From Halobacteriales archaeon SW_6_65_15 (lineage in GTDB: Archaea > Halobacteriota > Halobacteria > Halobacteriales > Haladaptataceae): 36,573 nucleotides of DNA. The stretch spans positions 1 to 36,573 of the forward strand of contig PXSM01000091.1 of NCBI GenBank assembly GCA_003023465.1, read 5' to 3'. The notes below the pieces were generated by a model, which saw nothing but the letters and a program-made list of their open reading frames with translations, was not told the origin of the DNA and made no database searches. Position numbers and translations under genes: made by a program. Positions 21,079 through 25,892 of the stretch are shown here, piece by piece (within the stretch, counting starts at the first letter, position 1; every line of letters starts with the position of its first letter).

Positions 21079-22128
21079 CTACGTCCCGAGCCCTCGCCTG
21101 CCTACCACCCGCCGAAGTGCGAGGAAGCCCACCGCGGAGATCACCAGATAGACGCCGACCATCGCGTGCGTCAGGGTCGGCGGACTCCCGATGGCGAGCT
21201 TTGCGACCGCGTTCGGCGGCGACTCCGGCAGGAGGTAGGTCGCGCTGAACACGACCAGCACGCCCATCGAGAAGAGGAACTGGGACTGCTTGCGCTCGCG
21301 GAAGGCGAGGGCGGTGGCCGCGCCCATGGTGACCACCGCCAGCGAGAGGCCGGTGACGAGCAGAAGAATCTCGACGGGGTTGGCAATCTGCGTGCCGTTG
21401 AACGACAGGAGCGCGAGCCACGCCCCGGCCTGCACGGGTGCCAAGATTCCCATCGCCAGCATCTTCCCGTCCACGATGTCGGTGGGCGTCAGGGGCGTCA
21501 CTCGCAGAAGTTCGAGGGTTCCGCGGTCGTACTCCTCGGCGATGGCGTCCACCGCGACGCTCCCGCTGAGGAACACCGGGAGGAACGTGAGGAGAGGAAT
21601 CAACACGGTGTAGGTGAACCCGAAGTAGGGGCTAGACGAGGAGTCGGGCGGCAGTTCGACGGGGGTTCGTTCGAGCCGGGAACTCAGCCGGTCGCGCTCG
21701 TGGCGCTCGAAGGCTTCGAGCGCGTCCCGAATCTGGGTCACCACCAGCGTGGTCCGGACGTTGCCGTCGGGCGCGGTCGCCCACACGTGCGCCCGCCCGT
21801 CGTCCCCGCGCTCGACCGCGAGCACGGCGTGAATCTCACCCCGGCGGAAGTCCCGCATGGCGGCCTCCTCGGTGTCGTACTCGACCGCGCGCCAGCCGTC
21901 CTTGGCCTCCAGCACGGGCACGAGGTCCTCGCCGTCCTCGCCGGTCACGCCGAACTCGACGACGAACTGGTTCGAGACCGAGCCGGGGTCGTACAGCGAC
22001 ACCAGTCCGACCGCGAGGAACGACGAGAAGGCGGCCACGAACAACTGGATGAGGATGGCCAGCACGATGGTCTTCTCGCTCCGGAGCGAGGCGAGTTCCC
22101 GCCCGGCGACCGTCAGGCGCTTATCCAA
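21079..22128 (-). CDS. ABC-2 type transporter permease (NatB-like)
   Basis: The protein has 349 residues. One N-terminal helix (about 20-42) is followed by a large extracellular domain of about 120 residues. A C-terminal block of about five helices includes the typical EEYDRGTLELLRVTPLTPTDIVDGKM segment. This is the architecture of sodium/antibiotic/lipid exporter permeases. It is the last gene of the locus, and its start overlaps the end of the upstream permease by 8 bp. With the second permease it would form a heterodimer driven by the ATPase at 24048-24829, whose gene is broken here. Confidence 0.88.
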   Translation of the reverse strand: MDKRLTVAGRELASLRSEKTIVLAILIQLFVAAFSSFLAVGLVSLYDPGSVSNQFVVEFGVTGEDGEDLVPVLEAKDGWRAVEYDTEEAAMRDFRRGEIHAVLAVERGDDGRAHVWATAPDGNVRTTLVVTQIRDALEAFERHERDRLSSRLERTPVELPPDSSSSPYFGFTYTVLIPLLTFLPVFLSGSVAVDAIAEEYDRGTLELLRVTPLTPTDIVDGKMLAMGILAPVQAGAWLALLSFNGTQIANPVEILLLVTGLSLAVVTMGAATALAFRERKQSQFLFSMGVLVVFSATYLLPESPPNAVAKLAIGSPPTLTHAMVGVYLVISAVGFLALRRVVGRRGLGT

Positions 22129-23968
22129 GGTGGCTCACCACCGTTAGGTTGTAGGCGGCGTGAACGAGGGTCGCCCAGACGAGCGTGATAGCGTACCAGC
22201 GCCGGTCCCTGCTCGCGCCGTAGGCCGTCGTCGTGGCCGTGACCGCGTGGAGCGCGAGCGGTGCGAACAGGAGCCCTGCCAGCACGAGCGGGGAGGTCTC
22301 CACGCCGAGACCCGTCACCGTGCCGAAGGCGGCCCGACCGAGTTCGAGGTCCGGCAGGCCGACGAGTTGGGCCACCGCGACCGCCTTCTCGCCGAGGAAG
22401 AAGCCCAGTCCCGAGAGGAATCCCAGAATCCCGACCGAGCGAAGCGACCGGGCGAATCTGGCGTGGGCGAACCCGGCGTAGACGTGGACGCTCTTGGCGA
22501 CCTCCTCGACGAACGCGATGGCGATCAGCAGGATCGGCATCGAGAGTTCGACCGGCAGGGCGAACAGGAGCGCTACGGCGAGCAGTTCCCCGACGAAGAC
22601 GAACGGGATGGAGAGCGCGCTGAGTTTCGCCACGCTCCGCGCGCCCGAAATCTGGCCGTTCAGGGCGTCGAGGAACTTGAGCGGGACCGAGCGCTGGGTG
22701 AACATGTCCTCCTCGCGATAGACGCCCGCCCCGAGCGCGAAGAGGACGGCCGACGAGAGGTAGAGTGGACCGGTCGAGAAGGCGTACTCGCCCAGCGTCA
22801 CCGCGGTCCCTCGCAAAGCCCGAACCACCAGCGTCAGGGGCGAGATGGACGCGACCGGGTGGACGTTGGTGAAGATGGCCGGGACGAAGGCGTAGGAGGT
22901 CAGGAACACCGAGAGGGTCACGGTGACGAACGTGAGTTCCTTGAACGACCGGGCGAACATCGCGCCGACGAACGACGAGGCGAGGAAGAGGAGCGCGATG
23001 GGGATTACGGCCAAGACGGAGGTTCCGGCAGTCGTCGCTATCGAGACGGCTCCGTCGGCCGCGGGGGTCAGGACCGCGATACCGACCGCCGTCACCGAGG
23101 CGATGGCGACCATCCCCAGCAGGTACGGCAGGGTCTTGCCCGCGATGATGTCGCCTCGGGAGACGGGCGAGACCAGCAGGAGTTCGCCGCGGTCGTTGAT
23201 CCGTTCGTCCAGAATCGTGGAGGCGTACGCCTGAATCACGAAGTTCATCGGCAGGACGAACGCGAACGCCAGCACCAGCGACTCGAAGGGGAACGGCGGC
23301 GCGACGTCGGAAGGCGTCCCCTGCTGGCCGCCGCCGAACAGCGACCCTTGGCTACCCACCGAGGGAGCACCGACCTGTCCGTCCCCATCGCCGGTTCCAG
23401 AGTTGTCGCCAGATGCGTCGGTTCCGCTTTCGTCGCCCGGTGAGCCGTCCCCGCCGCTTCCGTCGCTTCCGCCAAGTCCGACCTCGCCTTCGTCCGGCGT
23501 CCGAGTCGCGGGCGCGGACGCTCCGCCACCTCCCACGCGGTCCTGCTCGACGTACTCGACCGACACCTCCACCGGGAAGGCCGCCGACCCGTCGGCTTCG
23601 GCCGCCATCAGTCGGTCGTTGTACGACTCCACCGTGGTCCGGAGTTCCGCGAGCGCGGCCCGGCCCTTCTGCGTGTCGGTCGCCCGTATCCCGTCGGAGC
23701 GAATCCACACGTCGGCGTTCTCAGTCTCGGGGGAGACTGCGACGAAGGTCGGGTCCTCGGCCACGGGGTCGTAGTAGGGGCTGTCCTCCGCGACGCCGAC
23801 CCGGTAGATGCCGTCGTCGAGCGTGATCCCCTGACTGGCGACCAGCGGGGTGAGCACCGCGACCAGCAGGAGGACCGCGGCCGCGACCGCGACCGTTCGG
23901 CGGTCGAACTGGCCTGCGTTCTTCGAGACCTCCCAGCGGGCGATGCGGAGAGTCTTTCGCGCCTTCAC
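22121..23968 (-). CDS. ABC-2 permease fused to a PrsW-like intramembrane protease domain
   Basis: The protein has 615 residues. The N-terminal half is an ABC-2 permease: helix about 26-44, an extracellular domain with a Gly/Ser/Asp linker, then helices around YASTILDERINDRGELLLVS. The C-terminal 140 residues match PrsW-type proteases: FVEEVAKSVHVYAGF (Glu488, Glu489, Lys492), GLGFFLGEK (Glu527), LHAVTATTTAYG (His574), and LVHAAYNLTVV (His603, Asn607). PrsW enzymes cut membrane-bound substrates such as anti-sigma factors. The fusion suggests coupling of export or sensing to proteolysis (inference). A CAAX-protease (CPBP) relationship is an alternative, but EExxK favours PrsW. Confidence 0.8.
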   Translation of the reverse strand: MKARKTLRIARWEVSKNAGQFDRRTVAVAAAVLLLVAVLTPLVASQGITLDDGIYRVGVAEDSPYYDPVAEDPTFVAVSPETENADVWIRSDGIRATDTQKGRAALAELRTTVESYNDRLMAAEADGSAAFPVEVSVEYVEQDRVGGGGASAPATRTPDEGEVGLGGSDGSGGDGSPGDESGTDASGDNSGTGDGDGQVGAPSVGSQGSLFGGGQQGTPSDVAPPFPFESLVLAFAFVLPMNFVIQAYASTILDERINDRGELLLVSPVSRGDIIAGKTLPYLLGMVAIASVTAVGIAVLTPAADGAVSIATTAGTSVLAVIPIALLFLASSFVGAMFARSFKELTFVTVTLSVFLTSYAFVPAIFTNVHPVASISPLTLVVRALRGTAVTLGEYAFSTGPLYLSSAVLFALGAGVYREEDMFTQRSVPLKFLDALNGQISGARSVAKLSALSIPFVFVGELLAVALLFALPVELSMPILLIAIAFVEEVAKSVHVYAGFAHARFARSLRSVGILGFLSGLGFFLGEKAVAVAQLVGLPDLELGRAAFGTVTGLGVETSPLVLAGLLFAPLALHAVTATTTAYGASRDRRWYAITLVWATLVHAAYNLTVVSHLG

Positions 23969-24047: not shown

Positions 24048-24829
24048 TCACGGACGACCCTCCACGTCTGGCGACTCCGCCGCGAGTTCGAGGAAGATGT
24101 CTTCGAGGCTCGGCGTGTGGGTCTGGATGTCCTCGACCCCGCCCCCGGACTCGGCGGCGAGTTCGCGGGTCTCCTCGACGGCGTCCATGCTCTCGACCAC
24201 GCGGCGGTAGGTGCCGTTCTCCTTGATCGCGCCCTCGACCGGGACCGAGGTGTAGACGTGATACTCGGTCTGGCCGTGCTCCTCGCGGATGGTCTCGACG
24301 CTCCCGCGGGCGACGATGCGACCGTCGTTCATCACGGCCACCCGGTCGCAGATGCTCTCGACGTGGAAGAGGTTGTGCGCACTGAAGACGACGGTCTTTC
24401 CCGACTCGGCGAGTTCGCGGGTGAACTCCACGATGTAGTTGGTCGTCAGGGGGTTGAGCCCGCTGGCGGGTTCGTCGTACGGTCCAGCGTGTCGTGGATG
24501 CGTCGAGTCGCCTCGTCGCCCGGCACGTCGTAGAGGTCCGCGAAGAATTCGAGGTAGGAGACGGCGGTCATGTCCTCGTACAGCGGCGACTCCTCGGGCA
24601 GGAAGCCGAGGTGCTGTCGCATCTCGGGGTTCTGGGCGTCGTAGCCCGCGACGCGGGCCGACCCAGAGGTCGGTTCGACCAGCCCTGCGAGCATCTTCAG
24701 GGTCGTGGTCTTGCCCGCGCCGTTCGGCCCGACGACGCCGAACACCTCGCCGTCGGGGACCGAGAAGCTACTCTCCTCGACGGCGGTGAAGTCGCCGTAC
24801 ACCTTCCGGAGGTTTTCCACTTCGATCAT
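24048..24829 (-). pseudogene. ABC transporter ATP-binding protein, internal deletion plus frameshift
   Basis: The first part (from ATG 24829, MIEVENLRKVYGDF) has Walker A GPNGAGKTTTLKM and the Q-loop region GFLPEESPLYEDMT, then runs to IHDTLDR. In another frame the sequence resumes at YDEPASGLNPLTTNYIVEFT. It continues with the H-loop VFSAHNLFHVESICDRVAVM and a C-terminal domain. About 40 residues that hold the ABC signature (normally LSGGQ/MSKGMKRK) and the start of Walker B are missing between 24475 and 24490. The product cannot form a normal ATP sandwich. It heads the permease locus 21079-23968. An upstream ATG at 24859 exists but is off-spacing from the box CAAAATCAAG at 24862-24871. Confidence 0.85.
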
Positions 24830-25158
24830 CGAATACTGGCCAGTGTTCGCCGGGGGCACTTGATTTTGTGGGCAGCGCCCGGAATATTGAGCGCCGGAGT
24901 ACCCCCCGGCGGCGTTCCGTCAAAACATATATTTTGTTGTCTTTAGATAATGTAGAATGGGCTTTGACAATCCTAAAAGCTTTCTCAGGGCTATCAGAAG
25001 CGAATTCGCATACGGCCCAACTGCCCGAGTTCCTTTAAGTGGTTCTGGTAACAAGGAGGAGCTATGACGGGAAGTGGGCGCTGTTCTGGGCGATTTCGGT
25101 TCTGGATTTCCTGAGAGTGCACAGACTATCGTGGGTTCTGGAACGGCCTCCGGCGCGG
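24830..25158. other. AT-rich intergenic region with one TTTAAGTG repeat
   Basis: I see no gene except a possible 16-codon frame at 25064-25114 after the promoter-like repeat. The part at 24920-24985 is AT-rich (CATATATTTTGTTGTC). The promoter of the ABC ATPase lies at its left end. Confidence 0.55.
25034..25066 (+). repeat. Promoter-like repeat Q, copy A
   Basis: TTTAAGTGGTTCTGG is followed by AACAAGGAGGAGCTATG. The same module recurs at 25862-25892 (minus), 25929-25960 (plus) and 26912-26945 (minus). The sequence after it (GACGGGAAGTGGGCG) also matches copy C. Confidence 0.75.
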
Positions 25159-25743
25159 TCACTCATCCTCGTTACGTGCTCTCGTAATCGACCGTAATCC
25201 GACGAATCGGGGAACCTCGCGGAAGTAGTCCTCGTAGGCTTCGCCGTACTGTTCGCGCAGCCACGACTCCTCGACCAAGACTGCGAGAAACAGCCACGCG
25301 ACGCCGAAGACGGCCAAGATGGCGACCAGTATCGAGTTCGAAAGGAGCGCACCACTGACGAAGACGATGGCGTATCCGACGGTCTGGGGATTCCGGGAGT
25401 AGCGGTAGACCCCATCTGTCTGTAGCTCCCCGACCTGACCCCTCGTCTCCGCGACGCCCAAATCGACGCCACCTTCTCTGGCGATGGCCATCCCGATCAC
25501 GAACAGACCGCCGCCGACGACGGCACTCGTCGGCCACGGAAGGGGTCCCGCGTTCCAGTCGAGGTACCCGGTAACTACGAAACTCAGCACGAAGGTCAGC
25601 GAGCAACCGCGATACAGTTGGAACTTGAGTGCGTCGTCTCCCGGCGGCCAGAACCTGTAGGAATCCGACGCGATGGTCACTGCCATCGCACTCACGAGAA
25701 CAGAAGTGCTGAGTGCTCCAACTGCGAACGATAGACACTCCAT
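25159..25743 (-). CDS. Isoprenylcysteine carboxyl methyltransferase-like membrane protein
   Basis: The protein has 194 residues and about five membrane helices. The C-terminal signature of the ICMT/PEMT superfamily is present: GVYRYSRNPQTVGYAIVFVS, VLVEESWLREQYGEAYEDY, and REVPRFVG. Family enzymes use SAM to methylate carboxyl groups or lipids at the membrane; the substrate here is unknown. The frame is open upstream to 25887. However, the ATG at 25743 (MECLSFAVGALSTSVL) starts at the first helix and has a TATA-like box 21-31 nt upstream. It lies between inward-facing copies A and B of repeat Q. Confidence 0.82.
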   Translation of the reverse strand: MECLSFAVGALSTSVLVSAMAVTIASDSYRFWPPGDDALKFQLYRGCSLTFVLSFVVTGYLDWNAGPLPWPTSAVVGGGLFVIGMAIAREGGVDLGVAETRGQVGELQTDGVYRYSRNPQTVGYAIVFVSGALLSNSILVAILAVFGVAWLFLAVLVEESWLREQYGEAYEDYFREVPRFVGLRSITRARNEDE

Positions 25744-25763
25744 AACACAGTCTAATAGGTTGA

Positions 25764-25774
25764 CGTAAAATACG
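25764..25774 (-). promoter_or_regulatory. TATA-like promoter of the ICMT-like gene
   Basis: The minus strand reads CGTATTTTACG 21-31 nt before the ATG at 25743, giving a leaderless transcript. Confidence 0.55.
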
Positions 25775-25861
25775 TCACGATATCGGCTGGTAAGCCATCG
25801 ATGCGGCCTCAGTTCGACACTCCAAGACTCGTAAACGAGAGAACGCGAGAATACTCCTTCA

Positions 25862-25892
25862 TATCTACCTCTTGTCGCCAGAAACACTTAAA
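25862..25892 (-). repeat. Promoter-like repeat Q, copy B
   Basis: The minus strand reads TTTAAGTGTTTCTGGCGACA followed by AGAGGTAGATATG. Confidence 0.75.

Follow-up and report, generated by a model that had tools for sequence, protein, structure and literature searches.

Does a haloarchaeal ABC transporter permease carry an intramembrane protease on its own polypeptide? The question arises from a contig of Halobacteriales archaeon SW_6_65_15 (GenBank assembly GCA_003023465.1, contig PXSM01000091.1), of which we analysed a stretch of 36,573 nucleotides, here called the window. A preliminary description, made from the letters alone, had read one open reading frame as an ABC-2 permease fused to a PrsW-like protease and had placed the partner ATPase and a second permease beside it. 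The reading frame is real and lies on the minus strand. The layout of the locus is as follows.

22121–23968, minus strand: fused permease–protease, 615 aa with a GTG start, here called P1 (open reading frame and full-length orthologues)
22709–23968, minus strand: ABC-2 permease part of P1, residues 1–420 (Pfam, AlphaFold2 helices)
22124–22687, minus strand: very probable PrsW-type intramembrane protease domain of P1, about residues 428–615 (hhalign, PF13367 in orthologues, domain model)
21079–22128, minus strand: second ABC-2 permease, 349 aa, here called P2 (Pfam ABC2_membrane_3, 3.6e-21)
24446–24859, minus strand: N-terminal piece of the ATPase, with Walker A (Pfam ABC_tran, 1.7e-16)
24048–24431, minus strand: C-terminal piece of the ATPase, in a different frame (Pfam DrrA1-3_C, 4.8e-7)
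24479–24480, minus strand: junction of a 106-bp deletion in the ATPase (DNA alignment with orthologue L079)

The P2 frame begins within P1, sharing 8 bp with its end. The orthologue WP_227356692.1 carries the RefSeq product name 'ABC transporter permease subunit', and this current annotation as a plain permease subunit hides the protease domain of P1.

The first two thirds of P1 belong to an ABC-2 exporter. Residues 196–366 match ABC2_membrane_2 (E 2.3e-9, Pfam); across the pair of permeases, P1 and P2, Pfam gives PF12679 and PF12698, and a partner permease and an ATPase are adjacent. In the AlphaFold2 model of the full-length protein (pLDDT 79.8), the permease helices span residues 23–45, 228–256, 271–300, 307–338, 342–365, and 392–416; that is, one helix is followed by an extracellular part with a glycine/acid-rich loop and then by five more helices. 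The loop (about residues 141–222; window 23303–23548, minus strand) varies in length among haloarchaeal P1 proteins, was modelled with low confidence and is predicted to be disordered. When full-length P1 was used for a PDB fold search, its permease half matched NosY, ABCH, and an efflux pump from mycobacteria, with no value below 0.001.

What follows the permease is almost certainly a PrsW-type intramembrane protease domain, judging from profile and motif comparisons. P1 of the window alone did not match PF13367 (PrsW) in Pfam, and its protease part had no direct Pfam or PDB sequence match. Its orthologues did: in whole-genome searches, PF13367 was matched above its curated cut-off (23.5 bits) by P1 orthologues from five haloarchaeal genomes (24.7–31.5 bits) and from five genomes outside the class (24.3–31.1 bits). 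With hmmscan, 5 of the 47 full-length haloarchaeal P1 members matched PrsW (best 3e-9). The signal in single sequences is nonetheless marginal and depends on the filter used, because six full-length P1 proteins from outside the class missed 0.01 in hmmscan.

Comparison of profiles gave a clearer result. When a profile of 48 fused domains was aligned by hhalign with one of 14 stand-alone haloarchaeal PrsW proteins, the match had a probability of 92.9% (E 3.6e-7); the alignment covered 127 columns and brought EExxK, GLGF-E, and HxxYN into register. A profile of 21 CPBP proteins gave a probability of 8.7%. The domain of the clade outside the class, used on its own, scored 73% against PrsW (E 3e-5) and 1.7–3.9% against CPBP; as a negative control, the permease part of these proteins scored 0.3% against PrsW. 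A CPBP identity (PF02517) is rejected by these profile values and also by the motif, which is EExxK with an invariant K and not EExxxR. PrsW proteins have a conserved His in the fifth helix (TMH5) that CPBP proteins are without (PMC4602095). P1 has its K as far behind EE as PrsW proteins do, and it also has their additional His. Absence of a significant match to PrsW or CPBP, which the preliminary description had named as one of two outcomes that would refute its reading, did not occur, and the PrsW assignment is upheld by the orthologues that pass PF13367 and by the profile comparison (93% for PrsW against 9% for CPBP).

The motifs on which that description had relied (EExxK, FxxGE, HxxxTxxxG, and HAAYN) are all present at the C-terminus, in the following places.

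22493–22507, minus strand: motif 1, E488-E489-V-A-K492 (EExxK); E488, E489, and K492 unchanged in all 139 homologues with the domain
22385–22405, minus strand: motif 2, G522-F-F-L-G-E527-K528; E527 invariant, K528 in at least 95%
22238–22249, minus strand: motif 3, H574-A-V-T577; H574 invariant
22148–22162, minus strand: motif 4, H603-A-A-Y606-N607; H603 invariant, Y606 in at least 95%, N607 either N or D

G584 completes the H574-A-V-T577...G584 pattern. In the profile alignment, motif 2 lies against GLGFATIEN of stand-alone PrsW, where E-N comes after a GxGF helix and P1 has E-K, and motif 4, of the HxxxN/D type, lies against H-A-T-Y-N. We compared the 139 domain-bearing homologues (134 of them distinct), whose identity to the window domain goes down to 21%. 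Among the 176 positions from residue 440 to 615, the only invariant ones are E488, E489, K492, E527, P570, H574, and H603; six of these seven are PrsW motif residues and the seventh is a proline. Counted over all 140 homologues, the six motif residues are identical in 139, a pattern far beyond chance. The exception, L233 (1351–2976), is without the whole protease domain because it shifts to another frame around permease residue 404, perhaps as the result of a deletion or an error. Loss of the EExxK or His residues in orthologues, which by the preliminary description would have refuted its reading, did not occur either. The invariance is a sign of strong functional constraint, such as the site of a working enzyme would be under, and from sequence we predict that the domain is active.

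The structure model of the domain is confident (pLDDT 88.7, pTM 0.84) and has about five long helices, which cover the active-site core. EExxK lies inside the helix 473–501, and the EE pair, H574, and H603 are each near the middle of their helices (473–501, 560–587, and 589–614, respectively). A PDB fold search with the domain gave weak matches, headed by APH-1 at E 1.0, a value below significance that makes this match supportive only. APH-1 and PrsW belong to one superfamily (PMC4602095, PMC3482391), but APH-1 is a non-catalytic subunit of its own complex. This raises a second way of reading the domain, namely as a structural or regulatory PrsW fold that binds a transmembrane helix or an ion and cuts nothing, as is the case for APH-1 in gamma-secretase and, it seems, for the Abi-domain proteins SpdC and Abx1 with histidine kinases. 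Besides the rank of APH-1 among the fold matches, the change from E-N to E-K in motif 2 speaks for this reading, as does the Abi-domain protein SpdC, which works by binding membrane kinases (PMC5854430). We regard it as unlikely, given that a structural role should tolerate some changes and the charged and His motif residues are invariant in 139 sequences.

If the fusion is functional, how widely is it kept and with which genes? P1 was found in at least 23 of 28 genomes of the family, at least 106 of 145 genomes and at least 42 of 58 genera of the class, and at least 147 of 295 genomes of the phylum, including many families outside the class; these counts are lower bounds because few candidates were scored per genome. 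Genera with P1 include Halorussus, Haladaptatus, Haloferax, Halobellus, Natrinema, Halorubrum, and Haloarcula. Homologues found beyond the class belong to the same phylum, and we presume that they are those of methanogens and their relatives. In all 20 haloarchaeal loci inspected, the genes are ordered ATPase–P1–P2 on one strand and touch or overlap, counting one locus (L098) whose ATPase was seen only in a separate search. P1 and P2 also adjoin each other in 20 of 20 loci from outside the class, and in 17 of these 20 an ATPase is beside P1 on the other strand. Conservation of the fusion across haloarchaea and its constant company of the same ATPase had been put forward as points to survey: the fusion is conserved there and also beyond, P2 adjoins it in every locus examined, and the ATPase accompanies it in the proportions just given. 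No full-length P2 was found in 18 haloarchaeal genomes without P1. One genome that is without P1 contains a fragment of the C-terminal 65 residues of P2, with 68% identity (G003:C2:1183975-1184169), which looks like the remnant of a lost operon. In a tree of these proteins, a branch supported at 100/100 separates the haloarchaea from the rest, and the other families group by taxonomy, a topology that fits vertical descent predating the split of the class. By these comparisons, ATPase–P1–P2 fits an ancient, vertically inherited unit.

The genes around the unit bear on what it might act on. At the 20 haloarchaeal loci, no conserved neighbour or substrate gene that would name a cargo was found. 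Neighbours resembling an aldo/keto reductase and a RecA-like protein (names read from sequence) occur at a few loci and are not conserved. A PEMT/ICMT-type membrane methyltransferase (25162–25887, minus strand), upstream of the ATPase in the window, is a tempting candidate beside a CAAX-like protease, and we rejected it since it is not conserved beside the operon. The lack of a linked cargo gene would suit a transporter that need not export anything. In such a scheme the ABC cycle, acting as a sensor or as a mechanical switch, would open the protease, and the protease would then make the initial cleavage in a regulator anchored in the membrane. The NosY-like fold matches of the permease part, although below significance, lend themselves to the same idea; NosFY is thought to transmit force and not cargo. 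On the other side, no regulator gene is linked to these loci either, and to our knowledge archaea do not as a rule have anti-sigma/ECF sigma systems like those of Bacillus. There is a bacterial precedent in the PrsW of Bacillus, which makes such a cut in RsiW. The B. subtilis protein is the site-1 protease of a stress response to antimicrobial peptides (PMC4602095). On balance, transporter-gated signalling seems to us improbable.

The copy of the operon in the window is itself damaged. Adjacency of the partner genes, claimed at the outset, stands both for P2 and for the ATPase, but the ATPase of the window is broken. It reads in two frames and, in DNA alignment with the orthologue L079 of the same genus, has lost 106 bp. 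The deletion removes roughly LELDHRDRKIGDMSKGMTRKVAIARSLVNDPDVLV and shifts the frame. Lost with it are the ABC signature motif and the residues leading up to Walker B, so that of the three motifs of an intact ATPase (Walker A, signature, and Walker B) the signature is deleted in the window; the D-loop has N for D. These motifs are intact in the 19 haloarchaeal orthologous loci that were inspected. Compared with its orthologue L254 of the same genus, a cytochrome P450 gene in the same contig (19590–20480, minus strand) has an in-frame gap of about 184 residues, with a repeated D-V-V at the junction; several other genomes of this genus have a P450 orthologue within a few kb of the operon. Two lesions in one contig of a fragmentary assembly (169 contigs, 62% complete) point to an assembly or strain-mixture error, although the ATPase lesion may be a real loss. 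The same fragmentation and the same two internal deletions raise the suspicion that the fusion too is an assembly artefact, or its motifs a matter of chance. We consider this extremely improbable: an artefact is refuted by recurrence of the fusion in many independent genomes, some of them single-contig, and in a complete plasmid record.

The ATPase also suggests a more ordinary function. It is nearest to the DrrA- and GldA-type ATPases, and its N-terminal piece in the window matches NCBIfam drrA at 3.2e-35, which is below the cut-off of that model. P1 and P2 are distantly related to each other, as indicated by weak matches of P2 reading frames to the P1 model. Both observations would suit a drug or ion efflux pump of the NatAB/DrrAB type in which the protease is a maturation or quality-control module for the pump's own subunits. 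Self-processing, though, gives no obvious need for a phylum-wide fusion, and no cleavage site is evident; we hold this to be quite unlikely.

A different coupling of the two activities is suggested by work on Firmicutes. In S. aureus, Eep and EcsAB are both required for processing and export of linear peptides derived from lipoproteins (PMC7157817). Loss of Ecs blocks proteolysis by RasP, and this led to the proposal that Ecs clears the membrane of peptides (PMC2996298). Because P1 unites, in a PrsW domain and an ABC-2 permease, the kinds of activity that Eep/RasP and Ecs have, we tentatively favour cutting of a membrane peptide followed by its export or clearance over both the signalling and the non-proteolytic readings. 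The unit is an ABC exporter of two unlike permeases, P1 and P2, with one ATPase, and the PrsW-type protease is built onto the C-terminus of P1. According to this model, the protease would act inside the bilayer, next to the route of transport, on a hydrophobic peptide, on what remains of a signal peptide, or on a precursor anchored in the membrane. The two permeases, driven by ATP, would then remove or export the cut product. The P1 unit might thus be a one-polypeptide counterpart of Eep/RasP with EcsAB/PptAB. With the same reserve we infer three things: the domain is an active protease, it acts on a membrane peptide, and the transporter exports the product of the cut. With still more caution, we suggest a phylum-wide archaeal machine that combines intramembrane proteolysis and ATP-driven export in one polypeptide. 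If true, it would be the first route in archaea by which membrane-derived peptides, whether signals or waste, are released. The unit is tractable, being a single operon with a handful of key residues that occurs in culturable Haloferax species. The functions and targets of archaeal PrsW- and CAAX-type proteases are largely unknown (PMC9263693).

How does this unit compare with systems already described? The P1 domain shares EExxK, GF...E, the His, and HxxYN, in that order, with members of the PrsW family such as the B. subtilis and stand-alone haloarchaeal proteins, but it is fused behind an ABC-2 permease and has about five modelled helices as compared with eight in most members. No NCBIfam model that was matched names a PrsW–ABC fusion, and our literature searches on fusions of PrsW with ABC permeases found no description. 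Similar in architecture is NCBIfam NF041647, a permease subunit with a CPBP protease, which is like P1 in domain order, length (636 positions), and protease superfamily; its protease is of the CPBP type whereas that of P1 is of the PrsW type. P1 is rejected as a member of this family (21.6 bits against a cut-off of 435), and no protein exceeded the cut-off in 7 archaeal genomes. Coupling of cutting and export is also found in C39-type bacteriocin exporters, in which a peptidase is fused to an ABC exporter. Their peptidase is a soluble, N-terminal cysteine peptidase, unlike the intramembrane domain of P1, and Pfam gave no match to a C39 peptidase domain.

The parallel with Firmicutes is one of function. 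P1 matches ABC2_membrane families, and neither P1 nor P2 matched the EcsB family among Pfam matches up to E 1, which argues that the resemblance to Ecs does not reflect homology. We know of no structural account of how ABC transporters and intramembrane proteases are functionally linked in Firmicutes. That the fusion has been kept phylum-wide suggests that intramembrane proteolysis and ABC transport belong together. Eep/RasP with EcsAB/PptAB likewise bring an intramembrane protease and an ABC exporter to bear on membrane-derived peptides (PMC7157817, PMC2996298), but they are encoded by separate genes, the permease is of the EcsB type, and the protease is a site-2-type metalloprotease that is not homologous to that of P1. 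PrsW-dependent polymorphic toxins (PMC3482391) offer a parallel within the PrsW family itself: there, as in our model of P1, a fused PrsW is proposed to process and release exported material, with the difference that PrsW is joined to toxin domains in those proteins and to a transporter permease in P1.
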